Positions 25,293-57,681 of a stretch of 64,000 nt of DNA are shown in pieces. Positions within the stretch are counted from its first letter, which is position 1. Every line of letters begins with the position of its first letter. Both the position numbers and the translations under genes were made by a program. The stretch spans positions 124,001 to 188,000 of the forward strand of contig MAAO01000015.1 of assembly GCA_002163155.1 (NCBI GenBank), in the 5' to 3' direction. The notes below the pieces were generated by a model. The model did no database searches. It worked only from the letters and a program-made list of their open reading frames with translations, and was not told the origin of the DNA. This DNA comes from Halobacteriovorax marinus (lineage in GTDB: Bacteria > Bdellovibrionota > Bacteriovoracia > Bacteriovoracales > Bacteriovoracaceae).

Positions 25293-25352
25293 AAGTTATC
25301 CATGATTTTACATTAGCTCTAGTTCTATGTAAAATTTCATAGACTTATAAGG

Positions 25353-27546: not shown

Positions 27547-27685
27547 GCTTGCTCCAAAATATTAAGTAATGCCTTAAACTAGACAATAGTACCATTATAA
27601 GTATTTCTAGGAGTGAAAAAGTTAAGATTTGTTCAATATTGCCAAGATTACAACCAAGTAAAACGCTCAGTTTAACCCTAAATAA

Positions 27686-29146: not shown

Positions 29147-29152
29147 AGACAA

Positions 29153-29158
29153 ATTATA
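29153..29158 (-). promoter_or_regulatory. Possible -10 element of the C1 peptidase gene
   Basis: A perfect TATAAT on the minus strand ends 6 bases before the ATG at 29146. With start of transcription about 7 bases downstream of the -10 box the mRNA would be leaderless or nearly so. No good -35 box is seen. Confidence 0.3.
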
Positions 29159-29257
29159 CTCTAAGTCTCGGATTTTCAGAAATTTTTGAAGGAATTTGTT
29201 CTTCCAATCCCTACTCTCTGATAAAATAGAGGGACTTATCCCCTTTTGAAGGTATGC

Positions 29258-33208: not shown

Positions 33209-34468
33209 CTACTCTCCAAAGTAATCATTTAAGATTTTAATAGATTTCACAATATCATCACGTTTTAGTTTTTCATTTAAATTCAAAAAGAAACAATGTT
33301 CTTTTATCTCCCTACTGATTGGGAGAGATTGTCTAAATTCTTGAAAGACTTCTTCTTCATTACAAAGATTTAGTCCGTAGTTTCCACAGTCCAAACCCCG
33401 CTTAATACAGAAGAGCTGAAACTCCTCGGGTCGCTCAACATAGAAAGGAGCCCTTAAAGGAAAATAATCGTCCTCAGAGAAGTTCGCGGCAGTTATTGAT
33501 TTCAACTTATCACTTGCCTCTCTAAGAAATAACTCCCGGTGGGCCTTTCTCCTTGAAAGAGAACTGTGCCAATTATTCAATGTTGCCTGACCTAGCTTTG
33601 CCATCCAACTATTAAACCGAAAGAAGAGATTCTTTGGAAATTCAACCCTAAGTACTGGGATATCATCAAAGAAGATATCTAACTCGTTATACTTAGAAAC
33701 AAGATTCTGCTTATGAATATTGAAGTAGTAATCCTTATTGAATATAGACAATAGAGCGAGACAGAAGCGGGTAAAAAATCTGTAAATGAAAGGTGAAGTG
33801 AAAATATCAATTTTCAAATTTTCTCTTAATTGCCGCTTAAAGTAATCCTTCAAAGGATAAGAGTGAAACTCCGGTCGCTTAAAAGTAGATTTCTCTCCAA
33901 AGGCGAGAGCGCCACCAACCAGAGTGGTAATAGTTTTTCCCACAGATAAAGAAATGACTGTCACCTGGGCACAATGGTCTTGTTCAAAGTAATTCTGAAC
34001 GGGAGATTGAGAGATATCCTCTATGTATAATAGGTTATTCTCTTTTGAAATTTCAAAGAGTTCTCTATTCTTCGGCCTTAAACCACAAAGACTAGTTGAA
34101 AGAATGAGTTTCGTATTTCCACTGATCTTATTCTTTAAATCACTTATATTAAATGAGTGATCCGCCTTATCCATCTCAACGAATACTGGTTTTAAACCAT
34201 TGAGCACCAGGGCATTTACCATATCCGGAATAGTGATAGGAGTTAAGAGAACTTCACTACCTTTAGGTAAATTCAAATCTTTTAAATAACTGTAAAATGC
34301 TATTCTACAAGATGAGAAGAGTTCAACTTGTTTAGCTGCTAAATGCTTAGTGAGGTCTGATTTGAAACTAGATACACCAACTTCTGAAAAGTAGTCACCT
34401 CGCCAGAGGTTAAAGAAAGAGCCGATGAGAGTAGTAGCAGGAATGTGGAACTGTCCTCTAGGAATCAT
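33209..34468 (-). CDS. DegT/DnrJ/EryC1/StrS-family aminotransferase (copy 1)
   Basis: The 419-residue protein is similar to its neighbour (TPITIPDMVNALVLNGLKPV, then YIEDISQSPVQ with the acidic PLP-N1 residue). The Schiff-base Lys is in VTVISLSVGKTITTLVGGAL, in the usual place. The start overlaps the end of the radical SAM/SPASM gene by 4 bases (ATGA), so expression is coupled. Two adjacent DegT copies could form a heteromer, work on two steps, or one copy may have lost activity; the sequence shows both Lys. Activity on a nucleotide-sugar or free cyclitol cannot be told apart. Confidence 0.8.
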   Translation of the reverse strand: MIPRGQFHIPATTLIGSFFNLWRGDYFSEVGVSSFKSDLTKHLAAKQVELFSSCRIAFYSYLKDLNLPKGSEVLLTPITIPDMVNALVLNGLKPVFVEMDKADHSFNISDLKNKISGNTKLILSTSLCGLRPKNRELFEISKENNLLYIEDISQSPVQNYFEQDHCAQVTVISLSVGKTITTLVGGALAFGEKSTFKRPEFHSYPLKDYFKRQLRENLKIDIFTSPFIYRFFTRFCLALLSIFNKDYYFNIHKQNLVSKYNELDIFFDDIPVLRVEFPKNLFFRFNSWMAKLGQATLNNWHSSLSRRKAHRELFLREASDKLKSITAANFSEDDYFPLRAPFYVERPEEFQLFCIKRGLDCGNYGLNLCNEEEVFQEFRQSLPISREIKEHCFFLNLNEKLKRDDIVKSIKILNDYFGE

Positions 34469-35472
34469 ATCTTGTAGAGGTCTTCCGATAAGTTTTCACA
34501 GTATCGACAATCAGGATCACAATCGCTTCCTGTACTATTCATATAAGAGCGAAGCTCCTTATGTCTCGCTCCATTCCAAGAATCTTTTTCAAAAATATTC
34601 CCATATTGAGACTCATTGGGTGGTCTCATAAAACAGGCCCCGATTGCACCTTGATTATCCAAGTGCACATAACTGATGGGTTGCTGGCAAGATTTTGATT
34701 TCAACTCTCTTGAGACTGGAGCCGGCCAATCAATATTGAGCTTGTTACCATATTGTTTTGTAATGACTTTCTTGAGTTCTACGAATGACTGATCATCATG
34801 AAAGATGACTTTTTCCATCCCCTTGCCGTATGTAGGATAGTAATTTGAAAAACGAATATTTTTACAGCCAATGCTGACACAGAAATCCAGTGATCGGTAA
34901 ATTTCATTTAAACCATCTGCTTCTAGAATTGTCTGAATCCAAACGATACTCTTCTTCTGCATAGCGAGAAATACTCGCTCTACATCTGCCCAGTTAGACT
35001 CATATAAACTCAGTCCTAAAATATCGGGAGCACAATTTATAAATCGCTCTAACTTACTTCCCTTCAAGAGCGTAGAGTTCGTTACAACAGTTACGACTTT
35101 TCTTCTCTTATTTAGATCTTCAAGTATTTCGAAAATATCTCTAGCAATAAAGGGTTCACCACCCAGGAGTCCAACTCGCAGGGCATTTTTGAAAAACTCA
35201 TTCTCTGTGATTTTTAAATATTGATCATACATAAGTTCAAACTCTCCTCCATTATTTGGATTCAAGTCATCCCCAATGAAACAGAAGTCGCAGTTCAAAT
35301 TACAATTCTTTGTGGTGTAGATAACAACATTAGTGGGAGTATGTGACACAACCTCTAAACCCATTTTTCTCGCCCACAGATATTTTACGTAGTTAAGCAC
35401 AACTCTAAAATGAGGAGGAGATTTAAGAAGTCTAATGAATGCTCTAATATAGATATTTAACAGTAGTTTCAT
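34465..35472 (-). CDS. Radical SAM/SPASM protein
   Basis: The 335-residue protein has the SAM-cluster motif IYTTKNCNLNCDFCFIGDD (CxxxCxxC, about residues 53-60), LLGGEPFIARDIFEI (GGEP) and VTNSTLL. The C-terminal SPASM part has CQQPISYVHLDNQGAIGACF and GSDCDPDCRYCENL. It heads an operon with two DegT aminotransferases. The combination of a SPASM enzyme and a DegT aminotransferase is known from butirosin biosynthesis, where BtrN oxidises an amino-deoxy-inosose intermediate and BtrS aminates it. That is the closest precedent I can name, not proof. The operon is divergent from a GT2 gene. Confidence 0.85.
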   Translation of the reverse strand: MKLLLNIYIRAFIRLLKSPPHFRVVLNYVKYLWARKMGLEVVSHTPTNVVIYTTKNCNLNCDFCFIGDDLNPNNGGEFELMYDQYLKITENEFFKNALRVGLLGGEPFIARDIFEILEDLNKRRKVVTVVTNSTLLKGSKLERFINCAPDILGLSLYESNWADVERVFLAMQKKSIVWIQTILEADGLNEIYRSLDFCVSIGCKNIRFSNYYPTYGKGMEKVIFHDDQSFVELKKVITKQYGNKLNIDWPAPVSRELKSKSCQQPISYVHLDNQGAIGACFMRPPNESQYGNIFEKDSWNGARHKELRSYMNSTGSDCDPDCRYCENLSEDLYKI

Positions 35473-35586
35473 CGGTATCTAAATTGTAGTTAATTTTACG
35501 AATTTACACAATATTCAACAGCTTAAAGCACACAAAGTTGGCAAATTGCCTCATTTTTTTGTATTTTTATAGGATTTTATGAATTG

Positions 35587-36342
35587 ATGATAATATATAA
35601 CTCTAGAGAGAGAAATTTGAAAAAAGATATACCACATACACTTTCCATAACTGTCCCAGCACTCAATGAGGAGGCCAATCTTGGCGCGACCTTAGAAATG
35701 CTGATTCAGTCCAGCAAGAACTGGAAGAGCGTGGAGATCATCGTAATTGACGATGGTAGTACTGATAAGACCTCTGAAATTGCTTATCAATATGCTTCTA
35801 AGTGTGACCTGAGAGTTATTCGCCACAAAACTCCCTTTGGGAGGGGTTACTCCATCAATGAAGGTTTTACTGAATCCAAGGGAGATTTTCTTATTTGCTT
35901 TAATGGCAAGAAAGATACTACTCAGTCCCAAGTGGAGAAAATTCTAAATAAGGTCAATCAGGCAGAGCTCATTATCTCCTATCAGGACAATACAGCGGAT
36001 CGGCCTTTGATAAGAAGAGTTCTCTCAAGGCTCTATACTGGTATTATAAATTTATTTTTTAACAAGAGACTTAAGTACTACAATGGTTCCATTTTACTGA
36101 AACAGAGATGCTTTAAGAAGCTAGACATTAAAACTTCTTCTTATGCCTATGAAACTGAGATGCTGCTCAACTTACTTGAATGTGGTACCAGTTATATTGA
36201 AGTGCCAGTCATCGACATTTTTGAGGACGACAGAAGCACAAGATCTCTTAAAATAAGAAATATACTGGGAGTGGTTTTCACATTCCTTAGAATGTTCTTT
36301 GAAATAAAAATTCTCTCAAATAAAACGAGGCAGACAAATTGA
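35587..36342 (+). CDS. Family 2 glycosyltransferase
   Basis: The protein (about 251 residues from the ATG at 35587; a TTG at 35584 would add one) has the GT-A fold: LSITVPALNEEANLG, VEIIVIDDGSTDKTSEIA with the nucleotide-binding Asp pair, and RHKTPFGRGYSINEGF. The second part has the expected acceptor region and one weak hydrophobic patch (NILGVVFTFLRMFFEI) at the C-terminus. Where the DxD would be I read CFNGKKDTT, so the metal-binding site may differ (dolichol-phosphate-mannose-synthase-like enzymes have ADGD). It likely transfers a sugar to a lipid or glycan. The next gene starts within its stop codon. Confidence 0.8.
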   Translation: MIIYNSRERNLKKDIPHTLSITVPALNEEANLGATLEMLIQSSKNWKSVEIIVIDDGSTDKTSEIAYQYASKCDLRVIRHKTPFGRGYSINEGFTESKGDFLICFNGKKDTTQSQVEKILNKVNQAELIISYQDNTADRPLIRRVLSRLYTGIINLFFNKRLKYYNGSILLKQRCFKKLDIKTSSYAYETEMLLNLLECGTSYIEVPVIDIFEDDRSTRSLKIRNILGVVFTFLRMFFEIKILSNKTRQTN

Positions 36343-37355
36343 AGATTGCAACAGCTATTCAATATTTCAAACTAGCTCTTCGCATGAAAGTATATAGGCA
36401 TCCATTTACCAATTTTAGAATTGGATTACACTTCTTACTCATAAGAATCAATATTCTGCTTAAGACAAAGAAGCTGACCATCTCTCCCCCAAATATAGTC
36501 TTCTCTCTCACTTCTAGATGTAATAAGACCTGTGACTTTTGTCACTACATCACAGAGCTCAATTCACCAGAACACAAGGAAGACGAGTTAAGTTACGACA
36601 GTTTTGTTGAGATCTTAGACTCAGAAGGTTGCCCTAGTGTTGGTAGAATATGTCTCTACGGAGGAGAACCGCTACTCAATAAGGATTTCTTTAAAATTCT
36701 AGCAGAAGCCAAGAAGAGAAAGTTTCTCACCTCCATTGTGACTAATGGATTGCTTATTACTAAGTATAAAAGTGAATTACAAGAATCAAATCTTGATTTA
36801 ATGACAGTGAGTTATTATCCAGAAGATGTTGAGAAGATAAAACCTTCCCTCGTAAATATTTCAAAGTATATCCCCATCAACCTAAGCTATGTAGTTTCAA
36901 ACAATAGAATTGATGAAATTGAAAAATTTCTCATTTACGCAAGAGACATCAATGCGGCCATGGTGACGATTGAAAATTTAAGAGAAAATGGCATAACTAG
37001 TGAAGAGTCTCTAAAAGAAAATGAGCAGTTAAAAAGTCAGAGAGTTCATTTAACAGAAAACTACTCGAAACACTTTATTCTTAGATGGTCTGGTTTTAAC
37101 AAGATAGACACAGTGAACTTAAAAACAAGTTGTGTAGATTTCTGGGATACGATTTTTGTAAATGCCAAGGGACAGATCTCACCTTGCTGCCAATACCCTT
37201 TAAACTCATACTTTGGGGATATTAAGAAGAAGAGCTCTTCAGTGAATTCACTAGAAATGTTAAAATTGAGAGATCAGATAAGTTCTAACCAAGCACCTAA
37301 GAATTGTGAGGGATGTCACTACCTATACGCAAAAGATCCTTTATATAAATCTTAA
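36339..37355 (+). CDS. Radical SAM/SPASM protein
   Basis: The 338-residue protein probably starts at the TTG at 36339, overlapping the GT2 stop codon, with GAGG eight bases upstream. The SAM cluster motif is LTSRCNKTCDFCHYITE. CLYGGEPLLNKDFF is the GGEP site, and IVTNGLLI and LSYVVSNNRID are later strands. The C-terminal SPASM part has SCVDFW, GQISPCCQYPLNS and NCEGCHYLYAK. It overlaps the convergent zinc alcohol dehydrogenase gene by 4 bases. The coupling with the GT2 suggests the substrate is the sugar or lipid that GT2 handles, or the glycan it makes. Confidence 0.85.
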   Translation: MKIATAIQYFKLALRMKVYRHPFTNFRIGLHFLLIRINILLKTKKLTISPPNIVFSLTSRCNKTCDFCHYITELNSPEHKEDELSYDSFVEILDSEGCPSVGRICLYGGEPLLNKDFFKILAEAKKRKFLTSIVTNGLLITKYKSELQESNLDLMTVSYYPEDVEKIKPSLVNISKYIPINLSYVVSNNRIDEIEKFLIYARDINAAMVTIENLRENGITSEESLKENEQLKSQRVHLTENYSKHFILRWSGFNKIDTVNLKTSCVDFWDTIFVNAKGQISPCCQYPLNSYFGDIKKKSSSVNSLEMLKLRDQISSNQAPKNCEGCHYLYAKDPLYKS

Positions 37356-38368
37356 ACTTCTTCTTCAGCGACATTAATGACAATTTTCATGCACTCATCT
37401 CGAATAAGCGCTTTATCAAAGGCTTCTTGAACGTTGTCAAAATGAAATTCGTGAGAAATTATTTTTGAAGCAATGACTTCAAATTTTCCTTTCCAAAAGA
37501 CGATTGCTCTATCAAGAGTCTCTTTTGGCATTCCTCTCATCCATTTAAGAGTTATATTTTTCATAGCAAGAAGATTAGAATTGATTTCAACTTCTCTCTT
37601 ATACTTTCCTACAATAAGACAATGAGAACTCATATGAGTAAAGAAGTTCATATATTTCCAAAAACCGTTCTTGTCGTGACCATCACCGGAAGTATCAATG
37701 ATGTAATCAAAAGTACTTTCAGAGTCAGTGAGCGCCATTGGTAATGGGAGAATATTAAGTTCTAAATCTTTGGCCATTTGTATTCTATATCTATCAGTTT
37801 CAATCAGAGTATAGTTGAAGCCTTCCTCTTTTATTCTTAAAGCGGTAAGAATCCCTACGGGTCCTCCACCAAAGATCAAAGTACGATGATCTTTTGTCGC
37901 TCCAAGTTTTGAGATTTGAGAGAGCGCCTCTTCCGCAACTGCGGCGACTTCTAAGAGAACGATTTCATTTAGGGAAAAATCAGTAACCTTAAGTAACTGA
38001 GAGGCCGGAAGTATGGCCTTTGTTCTAATCATACCTATATCTTTTCCGCCTAAAGAAAAACCTTTCTGACATAGATTTGATTTTTCATCATGGCAAATTT
38101 TACATGCGCCACAACCCATAACAGCTGTACTAGTAACGAGATCACCGACCTCTAAACTGTCACATAGACTTTCTACAACTCTACCGACCCACTCATGTCC
38201 AAGTCTAAGAACACTATCGTCCGCAACCGTTTCCATAGCAAAGAGATCAGATCCACAGATACCAACTTTTTCAACACTAATTAACACTTCACCATCTTGC
38301 AGTGAAGGAAGAGTTAAATCTGATTTTAAAAATGCTTTATGACTAAATTTCCATTCAGTGATTTTCAT
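37352..38368 (-). CDS. Zinc-dependent alcohol dehydrogenase (MDR family)
   Basis: The 338-residue protein has catalytic-zinc ligands Cys38 in GICGSDLF and His58-Glu59 in RLGHEWVG. The structural-zinc loop has Cys86, 89, 92 and 100 (GCGACKICHDEKSNLC). The NAD(P)-binding motif is IFGGGPVGILTAL. It is most like sorbitol/threonine-dehydrogenase-type MDR enzymes that oxidise a secondary alcohol of a polyol or sugar. It ends an operon that includes a radical SAM/SPASM gene (start 3 bases downstream of the latter's stop). NeoA-type dehydrogenases act in this way in 2-deoxystreptamine pathways, a possible link to the DegT genes nearby. Confidence 0.85.
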   Translation of the reverse strand: MKITEWKFSHKAFLKSDLTLPSLQDGEVLISVEKVGICGSDLFAMETVADDSVLRLGHEWVGRVVESLCDSLEVGDLVTSTAVMGCGACKICHDEKSNLCQKGFSLGGKDIGMIRTKAILPASQLLKVTDFSLNEIVLLEVAAVAEEALSQISKLGATKDHRTLIFGGGPVGILTALRIKEEGFNYTLIETDRYRIQMAKDLELNILPLPMALTDSESTFDYIIDTSGDGHDKNGFWKYMNFFTHMSSHCLIVGKYKREVEINSNLLAMKNITLKWMRGMPKETLDRAIVFWKGKFEVIASKIISHEFHFDNVQEAFDKALIRDECMKIVINVAEEEV

Positions 38369-38370
38369 TT

Positions 38371-39351
38371 TTATTTCCGTAGAAAATATTCCTCAATAGG
38401 AATAATTATTTGTTGTAACTGCTCATTTCCTGAAGTTTTTAATTCTTCTAAAAGCTTATCTAGGTATTTACTCAGATCAACGTCACGTTCTTCTAAGACG
38501 CAAAAGACATTTGGATCAAAGAGAAAAATAAAAGAATGATCTAAGTTCTTCTTCTTGCAAAAATCTATGAACGCGAATATTTCATGATAATTTAAACGCT
38601 GAACACAGAAGTCTAACTTAATTCTAAAACTCTTCCTCTCATCTCTGTACTTTAGAAGATCATTTATATTCTTAATGAGCTGAGAGTAATTTCCTTTCTT
38701 TCTTATCTTTAAATAAGTATCTGGAAAAATACTGTCGACACTTATTGTAATCGTATCGAGCTTAATTAAATTTAAGGAATCCTTAATTTTCTTTGTAAAA
38801 CTCCAATTGCCATTTGTTGTAATAGACCAAAAGCAATCTTTATTAGTCTTAGTTACTTCATCAATTAGTTTGAAAGTATCTCTTTGAACAAAGGGTTCTC
38901 CGCCGAGAAGATCAATATGCTTTAAGAAAGGGAAAACTTTCTCGGGCCCTTCTGACCAAAAAGTACTCTGGTCATAGACTCCATTAGGGCCACGCCAGAC
39001 TGTGCACATAATGCACTCAATATTACACTTACCATTAAGTCTTAAATCTAACTTTTGTGGCGGTAACTCTTGAACAACTTCTTTCACAATATCTTTTTCA
39101 AAGACTTCGTAATATTTGTGACATTGTTTATTCTTTATTTTTTTAGCACAAGTTGAAATATTACCGGAAATGAATTCTTCCCGCAGCGCCATTATCTTTT
39201 CACAATTCCACAACTCCTCCATTGAGGAGTCTTTAATATTTCCAATAGGATAGTCATCTAACAAGCAACAAGGTTGCACAGATCCATCATGCATCATGGA
39301 TAGTTCATAGAATGGTCTGGCACAAAATGGCTTCTTATTCTCTTCGCTCAC
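38371..39351 (-). CDS. Twitch-domain radical SAM protein
   Basis: The 326-residue protein starts with a half SPASM domain: FCARPFYELSMMHDGSVQPCC, then GNIKDSSMEELWN and CAKKIKNKQCHKYY. The radical SAM core follows: RLNGKCNIECIMCTVWRGP (CxxxCxxC, residues about 109-116), LLGGEPFVQRDTFKL and TISVDSIFPDTYLKIRK. Its nearest relative in the window is the gene at 56565: both have the twitch first and an MCxxWxxPNG(V/L)YD sequence right after the cluster. It is fourth of a five-gene minus-strand operon, between a membrane protein and the zinc alcohol dehydrogenase. Substrate unknown. Confidence 0.85.
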   Translation of the reverse strand: MSEENKKPFCARPFYELSMMHDGSVQPCCLLDDYPIGNIKDSSMEELWNCEKIMALREEFISGNISTCAKKIKNKQCHKYYEVFEKDIVKEVVQELPPQKLDLRLNGKCNIECIMCTVWRGPNGVYDQSTFWSEGPEKVFPFLKHIDLLGGEPFVQRDTFKLIDEVTKTNKDCFWSITTNGNWSFTKKIKDSLNLIKLDTITISVDSIFPDTYLKIRKKGNYSQLIKNINDLLKYRDERKSFRIKLDFCVQRLNYHEIFAFIDFCKKKNLDHSFIFLFDPNVFCVLEERDVDLSKYLDKLLEELKTSGNEQLQQIIIPIEEYFLRK

Positions 39352-42896: not shown

Positions 42897-42924
42897 AGAA
42901 AAAAGGCCTTGTGAAAGGCCTTGT
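42897..42924 (-). terminator. Rho-independent terminator after S74-domain gene
   Basis: Reading the minus strand, AAGGCC (42922-42917) pairs with GGCCTT (42908-42903) across an 8-nt loop, followed by TTTTTTC. It directly follows the stop codon of the S74 gene and separates this operon from the TPR membrane protein operon. Confidence 0.85.
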
Positions 42925-42931
42925 TATTTGA

Positions 42932-43366
42932 TTATTTGTTTTTTAATTCTTCGATGATCTTTTGCTGATCTTCTAGCTTCTCATGAAGGTCTTTTACCGC
43001 TTCAAGAAGGATCGGAGTTAGCATTGAGTAGTTCACATGCTTCATTCCCTTACTGTCAGTCTTAACAGCTTGAGGAAAAACTCTTTCCACATCTTGGGCC
43101 ATTACACCAATTTGATTTGCAGCAGAGAAATCATTTTCTGGAAACTCTTCTGTTTTGTAATCATATGTATATGTGTTCAAAGAAAGAACACCGTTCATAG
43201 CATCTTTTAAAGGTGCGATATTTTCTTTAAAACGAACATCAGATCCAGCAAATACATCGAGGTAAATACTTTCATTTAGAACTTCTTCTTCAATTTCCTG
43301 AAGATTAAATTCCTTAATTTCACCAAAGTTGTATTCTTTCTTGTCTTGATCTTTTTCGTTGCTCAT
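42932..43366 (-). CDS. Stand-alone peptidase S74 (tail-fibre intramolecular chaperone) domain protein
   Basis: The 144-residue protein is nearly all S74 domain: GSDVRFKENIAPLKDAM, YTYDYK, IGVMAQDVERVFPQAV, MKHVNYSMLTPILLEAV, then the C-terminal coiled coil KDLHEKLEDQQKIIEELKNK. In phage endosialidases the domain is the trimerising C-terminal chaperone that cuts itself off at the Ser of SDxRxK with Lys at +5. Here Ser42 and Lys47 are both kept. Only 41 acidic residues lie in front (FGEIKEFNLQEIEEEVL), with no fibre. These look more like a leader peptide than a shaft. It lies downstream of a PqqD-like and a radical SAM gene, 106 bp from the former. Confidence 0.85.
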   Translation of the reverse strand: MSNEKDQDKKEYNFGEIKEFNLQEIEEEVLNESIYLDVFAGSDVRFKENIAPLKDAMNGVLSLNTYTYDYKTEEFPENDFSAANQIGVMAQDVERVFPQAVKTDSKGMKHVNYSMLTPILLEAVKDLHEKLEDQQKIIEELKNK

Positions 43367-43472
43367 TAAAGCCTCACATTTGATTGTCCGTACTCAGACA
43401 ATTGTACATCATTTCTCTTAATTCTAACATCGGGCGCAAATAACACCTAGATTTTATTTAAGCTATCAAGAA

Positions 43473-43766
43473 TTAGGCAGTTATGGCCAATTCTTTCTCT
43501 AGCAAATTGGTTAGAAGACTATTTACGTCGCCTTGAAGTTGCTCTCTAGACACGTTATATTCAGCAGTTAGCTTATCAATGACTTCTTTTACTGACAGTC
43601 CACTATCGATTAATTCCCAAACTTCAGCGGCAACACCATTAATCTTAAAAAACGACGATGAATCATCCATTTTCATAAGAACTACGATATCGTTGGCATT
43701 CTTTCTAGAAACCACGTCTTCATGTTTTTGGAATTTTGAATCATCAGTTATCTGAATATCAGACAT
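43473..43766 (-). CDS. PqqD-like peptide-binding (RRE) protein
   Basis: From the ATG at 43766 (GGAG nearby upstream) the protein has 97 residues; a TTG at 43778 would add four. It matches the PqqD/RiPP-recognition-element pattern: VVLMKMDDSSSFFKINGVAAEVWEL (given here in pieces SSSFFKINGVAAEVWELI), SGLSVKEVIDKLTAEYNV and DVNSLLTNLLEKELA. PqqD-type proteins hold a precursor peptide and present it to a radical SAM enzyme. Its start overlaps the end of a twitch-domain radical SAM gene by 8 bases, as expected of such a pair. No obvious short precursor gene is nearby; the S74-domain protein downstream with its 41-residue front part is a candidate substrate. Confidence 0.8.
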   Translation of the reverse strand: MSDIQITDDSKFQKHEDVVSRKNANDIVVLMKMDDSSSFFKINGVAAEVWELIDSGLSVKEVIDKLTAEYNVSREQLQGDVNSLLTNLLEKELAITA

Positions 43767-45141
43767 AATCTTCTCCAACAGTTAATTTTTTGATGAAATA
43801 ATATGATTTCTCACATTGTAGCATAAGTTTTTTATACTCTGGAAATGCTGTGAGAAAATCCTTCTTATATCTTTTATCAAATTGAGTCATGAAAGTATAT
43901 AAATCGGCCCTATTTTGCGCTTGCTCACTTGAGCTAACCCTAGTTACGATCCAGTGATAAACTCTTCTAAATTTTTCCACTTCATATTGTGAGAAGGAAT
44001 TCCCTCCGAAGTCAGCCACTCTACTTCCCATGAACTCTAAAGAGTTTCTTAAAGTCTCATGAAATTCTTCTGTAATTAAATTGGCCCGCAAATAACGAGG
44101 GTGATTTAAGTAAGAGATATCTAGAATGATCCTGGAATATTTTTGTTTTAACTTATAAATATCATCTAAGAAGAGGTCGAATTTTGGAATGGAATAAATC
44201 CCGAAAGTGCAGTTGATAATGACATCCACACCTAATTCATTCTTAAACTTTTCAATATTAGAAAGCAGTTGCTGATAATTTAATCCCTCACGAATATGTT
44301 CTGCCTGTTCTTTATAGGCATCAACACTAGTGAATAATTCAAACTTCTTTATATGTTTCTTATCTAGTACTTCTTTTAAGTTCTTTATAAATTTATCGAT
44401 GACTGAATCAGTTACACAGAGATTAGTATTTACCGCTAAGGTTAAGTTCTCTGCCTTATTCTCTTTTAAGTAATCGAGCACCTTAAAAGTATTCACCGAC
44501 ATGAGCGGCTCACCACCGGTGATTCTAAAAGTATTTAAGTTTTCAATAATTTCTGGGAACCACTTCCAAAAAGCTACGACGTAGGGATTCTTAGTTTCAT
44601 CATCTGAAACTTTCTCATTGCGCTGTAAGCGGTGATCAATGAGTTCTTTATAAGGACCAAATTTTTTAATCTCTTGTTCAATACGACTAGACACATCGGC
44701 AATGCAATAACCGCAAGCTAAGTTACAGCCTTTATCAAACATGACTTCCACATAAGTGGGAGCGATATCACTATCCCATGGAAGGTTGGCTACTTTTTCT
44801 TTATGAGGGTAGGCCCAATGATCGAGAGATTTAATTAAGCGATCAGAATTCTCATCCCCTTCACTATCTTCAATCTGCCAACAGTATTCACACTCGCTCG
44901 GTCTCTTACCGTCGAGCATTTCCTTTCTCTTTTCTTTTTTAAAATTAGTGTTGTGTAAAGCCGAAGGGTTTTGCTCAAGTTCCTTCAAAGGAATGACATG
45001 GCGCTTGGGATGGTGACAACTATGGTTGGTTCCGTGCACGAGGTCGATAGTCACTTGCAGCCATTTGGCTAAGCAAAAACTAGGAGAGACATCATTAATA
45101 GAGTCTATTCTCTTTTGCCTATTTTTTGTTGTTTCACTCAT
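43759..45141 (-). CDS. Radical SAM protein (twitch-type), partner of the PqqD-like protein
   Basis: The 460-residue protein has an N-terminal Cys/His-rich part (FCLAKWLQVTIDL, NHSCHHPKRH, ECEYCWQIED) resembling a half SPASM domain. The radical SAM core has MFDKGCNLACGYCIADVSSR (CxxxCxxC, about 134-141), FRITGGEPLMSVNTF, NTNLCV and ELFTSVDAYKEQAEHIREG. It shares an operon overlap with the PqqD-like gene and a short intergenic stretch with the S74-domain gene. It is divergent from the prepilin/fibre gene, with 193 bp between. By analogy to PqqE and peptide-maturing rSAM proteins it should modify a peptide or protein. Which one is the key open point. Confidence 0.88.
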   Translation of the reverse strand: MSETTKNRQKRIDSINDVSPSFCLAKWLQVTIDLVHGTNHSCHHPKRHVIPLKELEQNPSALHNTNFKKEKRKEMLDGKRPSECEYCWQIEDSEGDENSDRLIKSLDHWAYPHKEKVANLPWDSDIAPTYVEVMFDKGCNLACGYCIADVSSRIEQEIKKFGPYKELIDHRLQRNEKVSDDETKNPYVVAFWKWFPEIIENLNTFRITGGEPLMSVNTFKVLDYLKENKAENLTLAVNTNLCVTDSVIDKFIKNLKEVLDKKHIKKFELFTSVDAYKEQAEHIREGLNYQQLLSNIEKFKNELGVDVIINCTFGIYSIPKFDLFLDDIYKLKQKYSRIILDISYLNHPRYLRANLITEEFHETLRNSLEFMGSRVADFGGNSFSQYEVEKFRRVYHWIVTRVSSSEQAQNRADLYTFMTQFDKRYKKDFLTAFPEYKKLMLQCEKSYYFIKKLTVGEDYV

Positions 45142-45334
45142 GTCTTCTCACTGTTAGCCTAATTTTGTTGGCACATACCATTTTACACTGCCTTTATGAT
45201 ATTTCCAAAACCTCTATGATTTTAACCTATTATGGGGCAATTTTTTTCTTCATAGCGTCAAAACTTAAACAAACCTATAATTAGTCTAAATTATATTTAA
45301 TTAATAAAGACAATCTTACTGGTGGCGACTCATT

Positions 45335-47734
45335 ATGAAAAAGAAAAAGAACCTTTTAAATTCAAGCGGTTTCTCTCTCGCAGAGGTTATGGTTGCAGCG
45401 GCTATGGTCGGTGTAGTTTCTCTCGGGGTTATGCAACTCATGACCAATATGACTAAAGGTCAGAAAGAGTTTGAGCAAAACGCTGAAATACGAGGGATAA
45501 TGAATCGAATTAGTCTTGGTCTACAAGACTCCAATACTTGTAATTACTCATTGGTTGCCTTGAAGTATGCCAATGGTAATCCTAACCTTTATGATATTGC
45601 AGAAATTGCTGCAGCAAATATAAATGTAGTAGCTCCAGCAGTTGTAGTCCAAAGAATTGCGAAACCTGGTGTAGATTATTTTGCAGGTGGTGCTGCAGGT
45701 CCTTTAGCAGCTATAAACGTAGATACAGCTGATGATAGAATGGTCGCTTCCCAATGTGACGAGACATATGGTGGTGGAACAACAGAAGCCGACTTAAGAG
45801 CCTTTGGCTGTCTATATGGACAGGGAAAAGGTAAACTCATGATCAACAAGATGTGGCTTGGTCAAAATGCTGGCGGAACCACAGAACTCTACGTTAGATT
45901 TATTGCAGGCGGATTGATTAAGGTCTATCGAGATGCTCCCGCTACTGACCTTACAGCTTTTTACACTCTTTTAATTAATGGTACTCCTGCTCAACAAGAG
46001 CAAGCTGGAAAGATGTCAGGATCATTTGGTTCTCCAATCATTACAAAATCAACTCCTATTGTTCTAAGTGACGTTCAAAATGCTACTGATCAAGCAAGTA
46101 TTATTAACTTAGGAAGTATCGCTGATATTACTGATCCAGTGGCTGGTCTTGCAATTGGAGAGATCACAAATTGTTTTACAAATTTAACTGATACCATTCA
46201 AGCTGCCTGTGAAAACTTTGGTGGTACTTACATGCTCACTGATGGTTCATGTAGGGCCCTAAAAATAAGAAGTGATAATGCTAGTAACGCTGGTGAAAAT
46301 GGATATGCTAATTATCTAGCACAAGTTCCAACAAGTGCTGTCTCCCCAGGTGGAAACGAATCAACAGCACTTTCGACTGAAGGACATTTATATGTTGGAC
46401 CATTAAATGCTCTCCCCGGAACAGAAGCAACAGGTTCGAACGCTTGGATCTCAGGACGAGTAGTCGTAGCAAATCCAAACACAGCAATAAATTTTGCAAA
46501 TACAAACCAAGGTGACATCCTCGGAGAAGGCGCCCTTAGACTTGGCACCAAGGCAACAGCATCCGTACGTTCAAACAATGATGACGGAAGTCTTTTCGCA
46601 AGCAGTGGTTTACAACTTGGAGCTCAAGGAACTGTTCCAGATCCAGCTTCTGGTGATATTTGGACATCAGGTAATCTCCATTCTGACTTAGGTATAGCTC
46701 TTGGAACAGACGTAAATCAAACTCCTACAGCGGGGGACATCCTAACTAGTGGTGGACTTTCTTTAGGAGCAAACGGAAATAACGATCCCGATGTTGGAGA
46801 CATTCAAGCCAGTGGTGGTATTTCACTTGGTGGTAAGAACGCTAACAATCCTGCCGCAGGAGACATTATAACTTCTGGTGGATTAACATTAGGATCTTCT
46901 ACCCTAATTGCACCTAGTGCAGGTTCAGTATTTGGTAATGGTTCTCTTCACTTAGGAACACATGCTAACACTGGTTCTGCAGGAGCTGGTCATATAAGAA
47001 TTTCAGGAGCCTTAAACGTTGGTAATACTCAAGTGAATACAACCGCCGGGCAAGCTCACATCAAAGACAAAGCCTATGTCTATGGCATGGCAGTAACAGA
47101 AGGAAACTTAAATGCATTAACAACTGTTGAATGGGTTAGAAACAGAATTGCCTCTACCCTAGCTCCAACAGGTTCTGATGCAGCAGCTATTGCAGGAGAT
47201 ATTCTATCCACAGCAATTAAAGGTGCGAGCTCGGGAGTTATCGCAATACAAAGAGACACTTGTACTAACACATATTTTAAAAATTATGCAGGAACTAGAG
47301 TTAGAGGAACATGGATTTCAAACACATGCCGTATTGGTGGAGACATGCAAATGGCAAAAGATTGTAGTATCGGTTACCAATGTTCTCAGGTTTACTCAAA
47401 CACTTTTATGTATGCAAAAACTTATGTAAGAGCACTCTCTTATTTAAGATCAGGAACCTATCTAACAGTAGGAACAACGGCAACAATTGGTGGTAATACA
47501 TCGGTTGGAGGATCTCTAACATCTACGGGAAGACTCTATGTAACCAACTACATTCTTGCGACTAGTTACATTAGATCGAATAGTTATGTTCAAGGTTCTA
47601 AGTTCTGTATCGGATCAAGTGCATCTTCAAGTTGTATTACAAAAGTTAAATCTAACAATTGTAGTGGAACTCAAAAGGTTGTTGGTTGGAAGAACGGGAA
47701 CGTGACTTGTATCAACGAAGCAAGATGGTATTAA
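45335..47734 (+). CDS. Prepilin-type protein with tail-fibre-like repeats
   Basis: The 799-residue protein starts with a class III prepilin signal: positive KKKK, then SSG cleaved before FSLAEVMVAAAMVG, with Glu at mature position 5. A globular part follows to about residue 390. Then eight units of about 21 residues with consensus GDIxxSGGLxLGxxxxxxPxA (residues ~393-578) look like a phage tail-fibre or trimeric beta-prism shaft. The last 200 residues are rich in Tyr/Ser/Thr (TYVRALSYLRSGTYLTVGTT; SYIRSNSYVQGSKF) and Cys. It should be a pilus-tip adhesin or a surface fibre anchored through the pilus machinery. No C-terminal S74 domain is present, but a separate S74 gene lies across the promoter region. 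Confidence 0.85.
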   Translation: MKKKKNLLNSSGFSLAEVMVAAAMVGVVSLGVMQLMTNMTKGQKEFEQNAEIRGIMNRISLGLQDSNTCNYSLVALKYANGNPNLYDIAEIAAANINVVAPAVVVQRIAKPGVDYFAGGAAGPLAAINVDTADDRMVASQCDETYGGGTTEADLRAFGCLYGQGKGKLMINKMWLGQNAGGTTELYVRFIAGGLIKVYRDAPATDLTAFYTLLINGTPAQQEQAGKMSGSFGSPIITKSTPIVLSDVQNATDQASIINLGSIADITDPVAGLAIGEITNCFTNLTDTIQAACENFGGTYMLTDGSCRALKIRSDNASNAGENGYANYLAQVPTSAVSPGGNESTALSTEGHLYVGPLNALPGTEATGSNAWISGRVVVANPNTAINFANTNQGDILGEGALRLGTKATASVRSNNDDGSLFASSGLQLGAQGTVPDPASGDIWTSGNLHSDLGIALGTDVNQTPTAGDILTSGGLSLGANGNNDPDVGDIQASGGISLGGKNANNPAAGDIITSGGLTLGSSTLIAPSAGSVFGNGSLHLGTHANTGSAGAGHIRISGALNVGNTQVNTTAGQAHIKDKAYVYGMAVTEGNLNALTTVEWVRNRIASTLAPTGSDAAAIAGDILSTAIKGASSGVIAIQRDTCTNTYFKNYAGTRVRGTWISNTCRIGGDMQMAKDCSIGYQCSQVYSNTFMYAKTYVRALSYLRSGTYLTVGTTATIGGNTSVGGSLTSTGRLYVTNYILATSYIRSNSYVQGSKFCIGSSASSSCITKVKSNNCSGTQKVVGWKNGNVTCINEARWY
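46511..47070 (+). repeat. Degenerate ~63-bp tandem repeats in the fibre gene
   Basis: Eight units of about 63 bp (21 codons) code for GDIxxSGGLxLG-type segments. Three central units (GDILTSGGLSLG, GDIQASGGISLG, GDIITSGGLTLG) are the most alike, and the outer ones drift. They are repeats at the protein level, with the DNA already diverged. Confidence 0.75.
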
Positions 47735-51480: not shown

Positions 51481-52758
51481 ATGAGTAAAATGATTTTAAT
51501 TCGAAGAAAACAAACATCAGACTGGGTGAGCTGCCAAAGCATTACTAAGAACTTAGAGAGTCTTTATCGTAAGTCTTTTGCAGATGAAGTAACCACACTA
51601 GAAATTAGTGCGGACGCCAATAAGTATGACCATTGGTTAATGGCAAAAGAAATTGCCACCCTGGAGCCAACTCATGTGGTCTTTATTGATCACACTCCGC
51701 ATCCGGTGGATCTCGTCACCAGTATCTTCATGCAAGAAATGAAAGTGAAACCTAGTTTTATTTTTCATATATTTGGTGACTTCTCACTGCAGAGTCAATC
51801 ATGGCTACAAATTGAAGAAGTTTTAAAAGATTCCAAATCCATATTCATCTGTGCTTCAGACAAAGAAGTCCTACTACTAAAGAATCTTATCAATGCTAAA
51901 GAGGGAGTCATTCAAAAACTCCCCTTTCCCATTGATGGTGATTTCTTTAAGTTTGATGAGAAGAAAGTTAAGAATAATAAAAAGTTTAAATTTCTCTACA
52001 CGGGAAGACTCTCTGATCAAAAAAATATCATGGAGCTTATTCAATATTTTAATCAATACAATAAAACTATAAATCCAGAAACAGAATTAGTAATTGCTGG
52101 ACCTTATGATGACCTAGGCATTCCCTTTCTTGGAAAGAGAATGAAGAAAGGAAGTTATGGACTACATGTAGAGAATCTCATCAGCTCTCTTGCTAACGAT
52201 AATATTAAAGTTATTGGAAATTGTAATCACGAAGAGTTGAGACAGATCTACCATGAGTGTGATGCTTATGTGAGTTTAAGTACTCACAATGATGAAGACT
52301 ATGGCATGGCACCAGCAGAGGCCTTAACTTGTGGACTCCCTTGCCTCTTAAGTGATTGGGGTGGATTCTCTAGTTTTAGTTTTGTTGATTTTTCAAATGT
52401 TGTCCTTACACCAGTGGAAATAAGAAAGAACAAAATTCTTCCAGAGGCGATGGATGTAGTTAAGAAACTTCATCTCATATCCTCTAAGAAATTAGAGATT
52501 TCTGAAAGAGCTGAGTTATCAAACAAGGCCTTAAAAAGACTCTCGATTGATGGCCTCATACGGCCTCTAAAAGAAATCTATAAAACTGAATTAAAAGAAG
52601 GTAGTTTTCACTCATTTCATGGAAACTTTAAATCCCTCTCTACAACACATCTAATAAATGGTGCGACTCCCTACTTTAGAGCACCTAATGGCAGCTACTC
52701 GACTCTCTACAAAGAGATATACGCTCCCTATTTTAAAAGGCTAATCAGTGAAAATTAA
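51481..52758 (+). CDS. Family 4 glycosyltransferase
   Basis: The 425-residue protein has the GT-B C-terminal domain pattern: FKFLYTGRLSDQKNIMELIQ, ELVIAGPYDDLG, ECDAYVSLSTHNDEDYGMAP and AEALTCGLPCLLSDWGG with the donor-binding E-x7-E. The N-terminal half is more diverged. It is a soluble or membrane-associated retaining transferase using a nucleotide sugar. Its C-terminal half is a close match to both halves of the 934-residue double enzyme at 58422 (HSDENFGMAAFKYLISGKRC; LSDWGGH), so the three domains are paralogues. The next gene begins at a GTG within its 3' end. Confidence 0.85.
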   Translation: MSKMILIRRKQTSDWVSCQSITKNLESLYRKSFADEVTTLEISADANKYDHWLMAKEIATLEPTHVVFIDHTPHPVDLVTSIFMQEMKVKPSFIFHIFGDFSLQSQSWLQIEEVLKDSKSIFICASDKEVLLLKNLINAKEGVIQKLPFPIDGDFFKFDEKKVKNNKKFKFLYTGRLSDQKNIMELIQYFNQYNKTINPETELVIAGPYDDLGIPFLGKRMKKGSYGLHVENLISSLANDNIKVIGNCNHEELRQIYHECDAYVSLSTHNDEDYGMAPAEALTCGLPCLLSDWGGFSSFSFVDFSNVVLTPVEIRKNKILPEAMDVVKKLHLISSKKLEISERAELSNKALKRLSIDGLIRPLKEIYKTELKEGSFHSFHGNFKSLSTTHLINGATPYFRAPNGSYSTLYKEIYAPYFKRLISEN

Positions 52759-53743
52759 CATTGAAGAAGTAATCAATAGAGACTATTCGGAACACGCTGA
52801 ACTTTTAAATAAGAAAGACAGTTGGATGCAACCAGATTACCTAGATAAGAAGTATCTACACTATAGTCAACCGCACACTGAAGATTACTTCACTCCCGCA
52901 GGAGTTCCTTTTTATCTCGTGCACTTTAAAGAGCTTTCCTGGCTAAATCTCTTTCCCACAATATTTGTAAGAGATGGTCTGACTTCTATTGCTCATTTCT
53001 TCTTTAAATATCCTACGCCCAATGGTGTTGAAACGACCTTGATCTTGCCTATTGAAGCAGAAGAGCTCATTCCCGCCGCTTGGCTTGAGAATTGTCTACT
53101 GTGTGATATTAAAAGATATAAAGATGCAAACCTTGGAAAAGTAGAAACTATTTATATTACAGGTTCTATTTGCGAGAACACCTATAATTTCAAAGAAGTT
53201 GAAAAAGAACTTAGAGAATTAAAGAAGAATCATCAACAGAAATTTAAAGCTCTACTCTTTGATAATATTCAACTTGGAAATGAATACACTCCAAACTCTA
53301 AACAGCACAATGTTCATTTCTATAAAATGCTCTTTAATATTTTTGGAGATGACATTGAAGTTTTGAACTGGGGAGAATCAAAAGAGGCGAACTATAGTAA
53401 TTCGGCCTTCTTTGAAATCAATCAGAACAAACTCAACTTCTCAGATAGTTTTGTCACATTTAATTTTATTTCTGGCGGCAGTCTTCCGCTTAATAGCGAT
53501 AGGTATCTTGAAAGTGATTTTACTAACAATTCACTTAGAGTTTCAAAGTACCACTTTCTTGAATTCTCTCACCCCACTGCTTCTCCTAAATCTGAAGAGC
53601 TATGGAGTGAGATAGAAACTCTTAAATCCTACGTACTAACAGGTGAAGAACATCTTGTTCGAACTCATAAGAACTTTGAGTTAGTACACCTTTGTACTCC
53701 TGAATTTGAGAGTCTTATCTTAAAAAGGTTTAAACTTAAGTAG
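52748..53743 (+). CDS. Hypothetical protein, glycan-cluster type
   Basis: The 331-residue protein starts at a GTG that overlaps the end of the GT4 gene by 11 bases. It has no signal peptide or membrane helix. It contains TLILPIEAEELIPAAWL, TIYITGSICENTYNFKE and KFKALLFDNIQLGNEY, with the look of an alpha/beta cytoplasmic enzyme, but I recognise no family. The tight coupling with the GT4 gene and the next hypothetical gene suggests a joint role in building the same glycan. Confidence 0.6.
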   Translation: MKINIEEVINRDYSEHAELLNKKDSWMQPDYLDKKYLHYSQPHTEDYFTPAGVPFYLVHFKELSWLNLFPTIFVRDGLTSIAHFFFKYPTPNGVETTLILPIEAEELIPAAWLENCLLCDIKRYKDANLGKVETIYITGSICENTYNFKEVEKELRELKKNHQQKFKALLFDNIQLGNEYTPNSKQHNVHFYKMLFNIFGDDIEVLNWGESKEANYSNSAFFEINQNKLNFSDSFVTFNFISGGSLPLNSDRYLESDFTNNSLRVSKYHFLEFSHPTASPKSEELWSEIETLKSYVLTGEEHLVRTHKNFELVHLCTPEFESLILKRFKLK

Positions 53744-53746
53744 ATT

Positions 53747-54724
53747 ATGAAATTATATCCTCTTCTTTCAAAATTACCCTATTTTATTCAAACTCTGCCC
53801 TACTTTATAGCCAAGGTTGTGGTCACGACATTGATTGCCAAGAAAGATGTAAAGATCTGGGTAAGAAATAGTTACGTCTTTAATAATATTGTCTGTGCCC
53901 TTAGTGATCTCGATTTCACTATTGTGGTAAAAGAAGTCGTCATGGGAGATAAGGCAGTTGCTCGTTATAGTCTTTTAAAGAAGGTCTTTCCTTTTCTAGG
54001 AGAAATCAATCTCTACCTAGAAGATGAATTAAAAACTTTTGCTCCCATTGTGAACTCCTTTGAACTTAAGAGAGATCCATCGTTAATGGAGTACTTAGGT
54101 AATCAAGTGGTAAGTTCAACTAAGTATGAAGAATTAGTTTTCCTTTGTAAGACAGTTGAATCAGACCAAGAAAATCTCTTGTCCATTCCAGAGTACAGAG
54201 TAAAGAAATGGCAACACCACTTTGAATTAACTGGTAATCAGTGTGATGTTTCACTCTCTTCTCTTTTGAATCTATTAAAAGAAAAGTCACAGTCGCTTGG
54301 TTTTGATTCAGATAAATTTATAGAGCATTACTACACAAAGAATAGAACCATAAAGAAAGATTGCGATGACTTCTACCGCGAAAATTTAGATAAGCAGAGT
54401 TATATTCTACTCTACCCTTTTCGATGGATTGGTAGCTCACTTACTTGTGATTCTTTCATTCACGATATTGAAGAAATAAAGAGTTTTAGTGAAGATCAAT
54501 TGAAACTCTTAGAAGCGCAGGTACAGTGGGAAGTTTGGGGATTATATTCGCAACATATTCACAATTTACGCCAAGCAACTTTGCACACACATCTTGAAAA
54601 CATAAGAGAAATGATGGAAGTTTCTGAGTACTTAAGAAATTCGAAGGCCTATGAGCTGCTCAATAAACTTAGAGCTCTCCACGAAAACTTGCTAATCCAT
54701 TATCCAAAAAGCGGTAAGCTTTAA
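53747..54724 (+). CDS. Hypothetical protein, possibly nucleotidyltransferase-fold
   Basis: The 325-residue protein has VRNSYVFNNIVCALSDLDF around residues 39-57, which resembles the GS...SDLDL motif of minimal nucleotidyltransferases. The SDLDF pair of Asp is plausible as the metal site, but no other family element is sure. The rest is mostly helical. It is third in the plus-strand operon with GT4, and it overlaps the convergent ABC ATPase gene by 56 bases at its 3' end. The nucleotidyltransferase reading is a guess. Confidence 0.5.
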   Translation: MKLYPLLSKLPYFIQTLPYFIAKVVVTTLIAKKDVKIWVRNSYVFNNIVCALSDLDFTIVVKEVVMGDKAVARYSLLKKVFPFLGEINLYLEDELKTFAPIVNSFELKRDPSLMEYLGNQVVSSTKYEELVFLCKTVESDQENLLSIPEYRVKKWQHHFELTGNQCDVSLSSLLNLLKEKSQSLGFDSDKFIEHYYTKNRTIKKDCDDFYRENLDKQSYILLYPFRWIGSSLTCDSFIHDIEEIKSFSEDQLKLLEAQVQWEVWGLYSQHIHNLRQATLHTHLENIREMMEVSEYLRNSKAYELLNKLRALHENLLIHYPKSGKL

Positions 54725-55457
54725 TACCCTTCTCCACATCACCAAAGAATTGTATTTTGCCTGCATCTAGAACGAGGACTTTATTACAAACGGAGCGAAT
54801 TTGATCCAAGCTGTGTGAAACTAATATAGTGGCCCCTGATCTTTCAATAATATCAGAAATTCTTATACGCATCTTCTCTTGAAAGAAGAGATCGGCTCCA
54901 TCAAAGACTTCATCTAATATCAATAGATCACATTCCTTAGCAGAAATTACAGAGAGACAAATTCTCGCCTGCATTCCCTTGGAGTAATTTTGAAAGGGAA
55001 TATCTAAGAATTCATTTAGTTCACTAAAGTCTAGGGCATCTTCCAATAACTGCGCCTGAACAGCGAGGGATTCCCTAGGAAAGATAAATTTCACTAGTAG
55101 AGCGGCATTTTCTCTTCCAGTAAGTTCAGGAATCACCCCAATAGTTGTATTAAAAATTGAGCGGCATTCACCATTTAGAGCAATAGAGCCTGAAGTTGGA
55201 ACCAGAATACCTGCGATTAAACGACAGAGAGTAGTCTTTCCACTGCCATTAACACCGAGAATCCCAATTTTATCACCCTGTTCTAATTTTAGATTAAGAC
55301 CCTTCAGTACGTGCAATGCACTGACTTGTTTTCCCTGTAGGGTAAGAGTCCTTACAAAACGGTCTTTGAGGCTCACTGTTTTAAATAGTTCAGCGTCAAA
55401 GGTCATATGTAGATCTTCAATATTTAGAATGAGATCAGAGTTTGATAAAGAATTCAT
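54669..55457 (-). CDS. ABC exporter ATPase, Wzt type
   Basis: The 262-residue protein has Walker A GILGVNGSGKTTLCRLIAG, the signature YSKGMQARICLSV (a variant of LSGGQ), Walker B LLILDEVFDGAD and the H-loop VSHSLDQI. It has the features of the polysaccharide/teichoic-acid export ATPases (Wzt, TagH, KpsT): the SKGM signature and a region FKTVSLKDRFVRTL before the fold. No C-terminal carbohydrate-binding domain is present. It drives the permease encoded just upstream (overlap of 23 bases) for export of a lipid-linked glycan. It is the last gene of the seven-gene operon that begins at 62938. Confidence 0.85.
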   Translation of the reverse strand: MNSLSNSDLILNIEDLHMTFDAELFKTVSLKDRFVRTLTLQGKQVSALHVLKGLNLKLEQGDKIGILGVNGSGKTTLCRLIAGILVPTSGSIALNGECRSIFNTTIGVIPELTGRENAALLVKFIFPRESLAVQAQLLEDALDFSELNEFLDIPFQNYSKGMQARICLSVISAKECDLLILDEVFDGADLFFQEKMRIRISDIIERSGATILVSHSLDQIRSVCNKVLVLDAGKIQFFGDVEKGIKAYRFLDNGLASFRGEL

Positions 55458-56211
55458 TTCTCTTCCTTTTCCAAAATATTATAGCAATAGCAACAAATGA
55501 TACTGAAACTACCCCACTCTTAAACAATTTAAAGACTAGTACATTGAAATCATAGTCATAGATACAGTATCTAAATGGCTCAATCATAGCAAAGATAGGA
55601 TTGTAACTAATTAAGAAGCGGTACTCAGCTGGCACATACTCAACTGGATAGAAAATAGGAGTCATAAAAAATAAAATATTAATCACGAATGAGGTGATAA
55701 AGCGCACATCTTTAAAGAAAATTTGCATAACAGATAAGAGAAAACACATTCCTATAACTCCACTCACTAGAAAAATCAGCGCGAGGGGAATGAAGAAAAT
55801 TCCCGTAAAGCTTAAATCTGACATACCCCATGTTGGAATAAGTACTAGAAAGAAAGCAAAGAGGAAGTTGATAAAATTATCAAAAACTTGTGCAAGTGCT
55901 AAGACAAAGGGACTAATATTGAAACTCTTAAGTAGCTCTCTCGAGCTATCGAGCACAGGAGTAATCATATCAATACTCATAACAACAAAAATCCAAGGCA
56001 GCAGTCCACAAAGCAAAAACAAGGAATAATTTGGGACTTCAATTTTTAGAAACTTTCTAAAAACAAAGGACTGTACTGAATACATAATCAGCGGATTTAA
56101 AACAACCCATAGGAAACCTGCAATAGTATTTCTATAACGAGAACGCATATTAGCACTGGTTAACGCCATCACTTGCTGCCAGAATTGTCTAAATTCTAAT
56201 TTATTTGCCAT
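55435..56211 (-). CDS. ABC-2 exporter permease, Wzm type
   Basis: The 258-residue protein has six membrane helices. It starts FRQFWQQVMALTSANMRSRYRNTIAGFLWVVLNPL in two parts, with RYRNTIAGFLWVVLNP the hallmark of Wzm/KpsM/TagG permeases. Later pieces are FFKDVRFI and FMTPIFYPVEYVP, also conserved in the family. It exports a polyprenyl-linked glycan to the periplasm with the ATPase gene that follows. It overlaps the peptidase gene upstream by 11 bases. Confidence 0.9.
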   Translation of the reverse strand: MANKLEFRQFWQQVMALTSANMRSRYRNTIAGFLWVVLNPLIMYSVQSFVFRKFLKIEVPNYSLFLLCGLLPWIFVVMSIDMITPVLDSSRELLKSFNISPFVLALAQVFDNFINFLFAFFLVLIPTWGMSDLSFTGIFFIPLALIFLVSGVIGMCFLLSVMQIFFKDVRFITSFVINILFFMTPIFYPVEYVPAEYRFLISYNPIFAMIEPFRYCIYDYDFNVLVFKLFKSGVVSVSFVAIAIIFWKRKRNEFFIKL

Positions 56212-57680: not shown

Positions 57681-57681
57681 A

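Follow-up and report, generated by a model that had tools for sequence, protein, structure and literature searches.

What a radical S-adenosylmethionine (SAM) enzyme and its PqqD-like partner act on, when no short precursor gene accompanies them, is the question raised by a locus of Halobacteriovorax marinus (contig MAAO01000015.1, positions 124,001 to 188,000; this whole stretch of 64,000 nucleotides is referred to here as the window). The locus carries a gene for an N-terminal-twitch radical SAM protein, a PqqD-like gene and a gene for a small protein bearing the S74 self-cleaving chaperone domain of tail fibres, along with a prepilin-type fibre gene placed divergently beside them. The analysis points to the S74 protein as a ribosomally made client of a maturation pathway guided by the PqqD-like protein, which is a recognition element (RRE) of the type found with ribosomally synthesised and post-translationally modified peptides (RiPPs), and the probability of this reading is put at roughly 0.6. 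It is supported by the anatomy of the S74 protein, its conservation, its co-inheritance with PqqD and natural gene fusion. RRE-guided maturation would here take a form not known before, with a tail-fibre chaperone that cuts itself as the cargo.

An earlier reading of the window from its letters (the sequence-only reading) had described these four genes, and all four open reading frames were confirmed, with Pfam and NCBIfam agreeing with the labels. The S74 gene (42932-43366, minus strand) encodes 144 residues, which are divided into a leader (residues 1-41) and the S74 domain (residues 42-144; Pfam PF13884, E 5.6e-17, over residues 42-102). Upstream of it lies the PqqD-like RRE gene (43473-43778, minus strand; PF05402, E 4.1e-16, above the gathering score), for which ATG at 43766 is a likelier start than TTG, and which overlaps the end of the radical SAM gene by 8 bp with the ATG start or by 20 bp with the TTG start. 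The twitch radical SAM gene (43759-45141, minus strand) reaches 306.6 bits against NCBIfam N_Twi_rSAM (NF033640, cutoff 170), and its CxxxCxxC motif, CNLACGYC, is kept in 30 of 30 relatives. A terminator-like hairpin (42903-42922, minus strand; 8-bp stem and T-rich tail) closes this row 3′ of the S74 gene. The fibre gene (45335-47734, plus strand) encodes 799 residues, with an N_methyl match (E 0.0016, 18.4 bits) that is under its own cutoff. Both the overlap of the radical SAM and PqqD-like genes and the lack of a separate short precursor gene beside the three genes in the window hold as claimed, and the search with the leader gave one match per genome.

The front part of the S74 protein had been proposed as a substrate, and exactly 41 residues do stand ahead of the catalytic Ser42. 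The leader block covers residues 12-41 (43244-43333, minus strand; YNFGEIKEFNLQEIEEEVLNESIYLDVFAG), follows the consensus YxFGGIxEFNLEEIExEVLNDSVYLDVFAG and terminates exactly at the self-cleavage motif of S74 domains, Ser42-Asp43 of SDxxxK. The predicted cleavage point between Gly41 and Ser42 lies at 43241-43246 on the minus strand, and the codon of Lys47 at 43226-43228. Full-length orthologues are present in 26 family genomes and in 5 others of the phylum; the free-standing S74 proteins can be aligned end to end, and the mean majority identity is 0.77 for residues 12-31, 0.92 for residues 32-41 and 0.59 for the S74 domain. The SDxxxK motif is retained, with Lys47 in 26 of 26 orthologues and Ser42 in all but one; in that orthologue (L083:8975-9400) the catalytic Ser is replaced by Cys (VFAGCD). 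Autoproteolysis at this motif, after trimerisation, has been demonstrated for Bd3182 of Bdellovibrio (PMC10769870).

Across 31 genomes the last ten leader codons occur in 31 different DNA versions, which encode nearly the same peptide. In the ordinary S74 fibre proteins sampled from the family, the sequence ahead of the Ser is unrelated. Selection therefore acts on the leader block at the protein level, and the block belongs to this S74 protein specifically. It was found in 31 of the 369 genomes of the phylum Bdellovibrionota, in a single copy each. Beyond the phylum it was not found with one exact-peptide pattern in the named genomes scanned, and one scan of IMG/VR gave no relative of the leader among viruses, on which ground a viral origin of the tagged S74 protein was rejected.

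Whether PqqD and the S74 protein belong together was followed through their distribution, most of the genomes being fragmented metagenome assemblies. Among 129 family genomes, 28 have a PqqD of the matching type (E below 1e-20), 26 have the leader block and 25 have the two together (hypergeometric p = 2.7e-22, a value that is too small since the genomes are related). Presence and absence agree within genera as well, as in the case of G044, which has neither, whereas all four of its congeners carry the pair. Three genomes have PqqD without the block: in G033 and G048 the gene is close to the end of a contig, and G075 is a true exception. In three loci outside the family (L116, L117 and L121), one open frame encodes PqqD, the leader and the S74 domain, and PqqD is placed immediately upstream of the S74 gene in L103 and L106. 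For joint action of PqqD and the S74 protein, this fusion is the weightiest single piece of evidence. The near-invariant block, the co-inheritance and the natural PqqD-leader-S74 fusions support the two proteins as partners, and residues 1-41 as the likely leader or substrate. Conservation of gene order had also been proposed as a check, and here the outcome was divided: co-occurrence is very strong, but the radical SAM-PqqD-S74 order is confined to close relatives. This loss of order was not taken as refuting the partnership, because co-occurrence and gene fusion outweigh order as evidence.

The RRE character of the PqqD-like protein was analyzed further via profile and structure comparison. 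The family profile matches the solved RREs 5v1u, 9x8z and 3g2b, the best being the lasso RRE TbiB1 (5v1u, E 2.6e-11). A true PQQ system was rejected, as the PqqD equivalog TIGR03859 gives 34.3 bits against a cutoff of 46. In the AlphaFold2 model of the L116 fusion (mean predicted local distance difference test score, pLDDT, 88.6; predicted TM-score 0.56), an RRE fold is followed by a leader strand at residues 122-126 (LKSFN) and a helix at 127-137, after which a low-confidence linker leads into an S74 fold. In Foldseek, the S74 part of this model is matched to the MyRF chaperone domain, and the front part, with weaker E-values, to the RRE-bearing RiPP enzymes TigE, ThcOx and TruD. The modelled strand and helix of the leader are in the style in which RREs bind leaders, and the EFNLEEIE box resembles both of the RRE motif types FxLD and W/Y/LxxP/L/I listed in PMC12710340.

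Related leaders are found in one genome (G019), where a more distant PqqD relative is accompanied by four short precursors (L152:12335-12547, L152:15344-15499, L164 and L166) with a conserved front, KKEYxFxxL...LLLRAYARI, and variable ends, several of which are rich in Gly, Asp and Cys. This locus also has a JmjC-like protein, an amidoligase-like protein and a pyridoxal phosphate (PLP) decarboxylase. When one of these precursors was used as query, the S74 protein of the window was among the few weak matches (E 0.012), and hhalign aligned residues 8-40 of the S74 protein with the conserved front of the precursors at E 1e-4 and a probability of 56%, a score which shuffled sequences seldom reach. 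As leaders of this kind stand ahead of short variable cores at a related PqqD locus, this modest evidence suggests that the S74 domain occupies the position of the RiPP core.

The same comparison bears on a different product, namely the released N-terminal peptide itself, in which the YLDVFAG end would be a constant core that the radical SAM enzyme modifies and the S74 domain a follower that removes itself; the outcome would be a single small, conserved product, like those of the PQQ and mycofactocin pathways. Residues 32-41 are indeed the most conserved part (0.92), and a single copy per genome suits a single product. However, the variable, core-like part of the G019 precursors lies after the segment aligned with YLDVFA, the S74 domain is kept complete, and self-cutting in the PqqD fusions would leave the peptide on PqqD, so that we hold such a product to be unlikely.

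The second substrate proposed in the sequence-only reading was the fibre, and this was not borne out, as the fibre is absent from most loci and has no leader block; yet it is an enriched neighbour. The loci surveyed number 31 (the window, the neighbourhoods of 25 S74 orthologues from the same family and 5 further relatives in the phylum), in stretches of mostly ~20 kb, several of which are cut by contig ends. The fibre is present in 8 of them within the searched stretch, and it divergently adjoins the module in the window and in its closest relatives (L061, L063 and L064), an adjacency that speaks for the fibre as modified substrate. By coordinates it lies within ~10 kb of S74, PqqD or radical SAM genes in ~12 of 26 family genomes, against a rough expectation of 0.2. 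The fibre is thus an enriched neighbour and not part of the module core. As most loci have PqqD, radical SAM and S74 genes without a nearby fibre, and the leader search of the window's genome matches the S74 protein only, the fibre as modified substrate was rejected and is scarcely probable.

An in-trans chaperone role of the S74 protein for the fibre, which is without an S74 domain of its own, is possible in view of this enrichment, and the family has prepilin-type proteins that themselves end in an S74 domain. The two such proteins observed (L167:232-1425, 397 residues, and L168:210-1562, 450 residues) combine both parts in a single chain and are apparently a pilin-type counterpart of S74 fibres. 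To make this chaperoning the main task of the S74 protein, with PqqD only controlling the chaperone, is very unlikely, for the fibre is missing from most of the searched loci, and the N-terminus of the S74 protein is hydrophilic with no evident Sec signal.

The survey of the loci also placed the genes in a larger frame. The genes of the sequence-only reading, which ended at position 47734, are real, but they are only a slice of a recurring module of ~13 genes in Bdellovibrionota, which has the same set in shuffled order and whose remainder in the window lies at 51481-62938. PqqD is present in 24 of the 31 loci, together with the three fusions, and the twitch radical SAM in 21. On the plus strand of the window the remainder begins with a family 4 glycosyltransferase (GT4; 51481-52758; PF00534, E 2.5e-24; 20 loci), which is followed by a divergent protein with a distantly GT-B-like fold (52748-53743; AlphaFold2 pLDDT 87.4; 21 loci), for which Foldseek gives the SenB glycosyltransferase at E 1.1e-4 with a low TM-score, and by a putative Pol-beta-type nucleotidyltransferase (53747-54724; 22 loci). 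The SDLD motif of the latter is invariant in the family alignment, and the Pfam Polbeta match is weak, in one member (E 0.0046); the search of solved structures by sequence with these last two families gave nothing useful. Two loci have a degenerate radical SAM-like region joined to the nucleotidyltransferase-like protein in one chain (L117:14173-16260, 695 residues; L121:995-2968, 657 residues).

The minus strand carries a Wzt-like ABC exporter ATPase (54669-55457; PF00005, E 4.8e-22; galactan_ABC_ATP at 162 bits, below cutoff; 17 loci) and a Wzm-like permease (55435-56211; PF01061, E 5.7e-14; 20 loci). Beside these is a short protein of 124 residues like signal peptidase I of the archaeal type, which is the candidate leader peptidase (56201-56575; 16 loci); its Ser31 and His68 are conserved, and TIGR02228 matches it at E 5.6e-10 and 39.3 bits, below the cutoff of 51.85. 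Extra copies of this protein beside a twitch radical SAM gene were observed in three loci (L067:3504-3899, L068:1520-1924 and L089:9078-9503), where the Ser that should precede Met is missing (HDDM, HDHM and HDNM), and these second copies are probably inactive paralogues. Thereafter come two radical SAM/SPASM proteins (56565-57680, PF04055 and PF13186, 17 loci; 57682-58425, PF13186 at E 7e-17 and PF04055, 13 loci), a double GT4 glycosyltransferase (58422-61226; PF00534 in two stretches; 20 loci) and a NodU-like carbamoyltransferase (61223-62938; PF16861, E 9.4e-56, and PF02543; 20 loci).

The surroundings are rich in sugar genes, with GT4 and GT2 glycosyltransferases, DegT aminotransferases, a WbuC-type cupin, an epimerase, many radical SAM proteins and the Wzm/Wzt-like exporter. 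Farther off, at 24186-39351 of the window, five more radical SAM genes, two DegT aminotransferases, GDSL-type genes and one GT2 gene were observed, which are probably for unusual sugar biosynthesis. A second RiPP cluster, of LPP/paeninodin-like type (LPP, linear polyphosphorylated peptide), is present in the same genome (L153:1735-11990; G000:C1:625000-637000), with two PqqD genes, an S24-like peptidase, NTP_transf_5, a radical SAM/SPASM protein, ABC genes, a precursor-like gene of 61 residues, a C25 peptidase of 1598 residues and a candidate kinase with weak PEPCK_ATP similarity.

A locus with so many genes for glycosyltransferases, aminotransferases and radical SAM proteins would also suit an S74 trimer acting as scaffold or adaptor, on whose tag PqqD docks and gathers glycan or radical SAM enzymes, while the S74 protein is never modified and the radical SAM enzymes act on sugars; the fusion of PqqD to the tagged protein in three genomes is in line with this too. 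The dedicated signal-peptidase-like protein, the RRE and the leader-like homology to short precursors suggest instead a processed substrate, and a pure scaffold is judged quite improbable.

For the S74 protein as a client of RRE-guided maturation, the whole course, that is leader binding, which protease cuts, which part stays, every modification and export, is what we infer, as follows. The PqqD-like protein would bind leader residues 12-41, with the EFNLEEIE box probably added as a strand in the manner of FNLD-type leaders, and would hand the S74 protein to the enzymes of the module, namely the twitch radical SAM, the SPASM radical SAM proteins, the nucleotidyltransferase-like protein, the glycosyltransferases and the carbamoyltransferase. 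The cut at Gly41/Ser42 may be made by the Ser/Lys chemistry of the S74 domain, by the signal-peptidase-like protein or by both, and the trimerising chaperone domain would take the place of the RiPP core. Export of the product would probably be through the Wzm/Wzt-like transporter, either alongside the glycan made by the rest of the locus or joined to it. As a speculative extension, which we consider improbable, the acyl chemistry at Gly41-Ser42 might transfer either the leader or the modified S74 trimer to a surface glycan or to a pilin-type fibre, so that RiPP enzymes would build a cell-surface conjugate and not a small secreted peptide.

Several observations weigh against this pathway. The twitch radical SAM is not always linked to PqqD or S74, and related twitch radical SAM proteins exist in the absence of these two; one genome (G023) carries the S74 protein while PqqD was not detected in it. 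In the PqqD fusions the leader remains joined to its reader, which is unusual for a RiPP and fits a scaffold role too, and the likeness of the leader to the short precursors is modest (hhalign probability 56%).

If the pathway is true, a folded, trimerising and self-cleaving domain joins the cargo types handled by RRE pathways, and, in relatives of predatory bacteria, peptide-type radical SAM machinery is tied to loci for surface polysaccharide and fibres. The natural fusions of RRE and precursor make the pair identify itself. The role of RiPPs in capsule loci has been stated as unknown (PMC13381572), and the S74 module, with PqqD, the S74 protein, the signal-peptidase-like protein and radical SAM enzymes, is a compact test case for it.

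Among known systems, no earlier description of a PqqD/radical SAM set with a tail fibre, or of S74 with radical SAM, was found in the open-licence PubMed Central (PMC) literature, where the claim that no such system had been described also holds. The MAT fibres of Bdellovibrio (PMC10769870) likewise have an S74 domain with SDxxxK, in relatives of predatory bacteria; they are long secreted fibres with S74 in cis, having a beta domain of ~130 residues after a signal peptide and a long fibre in the same chain, whereas the protein of the window has 144 residues, no fibre part and an RRE-type leader. The intramolecular chaperones of phage tail fibres and MyRF (PF13884) share the fold and the catalytic Ser and Lys, but the S74 protein has a 41-residue leader in place of the upstream beta-helical stalk. 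The PQQ, SCM and GeoRSP systems of NCBIfam likewise have PqqD-like proteins beside radical SAM proteins, with scores here under the curated cutoffs and a different precursor. NisB and NisC recognise the FNLD box of class I lanthipeptide leaders (PMC5294574), which EFNLEEIE resembles as a short motif only, and no LanB or LanC was identified at the locus. The general plan of a RiPP, a ribosomal precursor with a conserved leader beside an RRE and modifying enzymes, is present.

The closest comparison is with the LPP RiPPs described from Bacillota in 2026, which have a discrete RRE, a leader peptidase like archaeal-type signal peptidase, an NTP transferase and an exporter in capsule loci, and whose peptidase (residues S29, H68 and D93) requires Phe at -3 of the cut (PMC13381572). 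Both systems have a discrete PqqD-type RRE, an archaeal-type signal-peptidase-like protein, a nucleotidyltransferase, an ABC exporter and a polysaccharide locus, and both precursors have a well-conserved front part; Phe39 of the S74 leader stands at -3 of the predicted Gly41/Ser42 cut. The combination of RRE, signal-peptidase-I-like peptidase and NTP transferase is found in one locus, the peptidase-like and transferase-like matches being both distant. Among the scanned module genes of the window there is no HprK-like kinase, and the LPP leader motif YxxPxVLxHQxIxFETxxS is not in the S74 leader. The S74 module differs further in coming from Bdellovibrionota, in its radical SAM and carbamoyltransferase genes, in having a Wzm/Wzt-like and not an MsbA-like exporter, in its cargo, a conserved self-cleaving S74 domain, and in some fusions of RRE and precursor. 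By this comparison, the S74 module may work like the LPP system without being a member of it.

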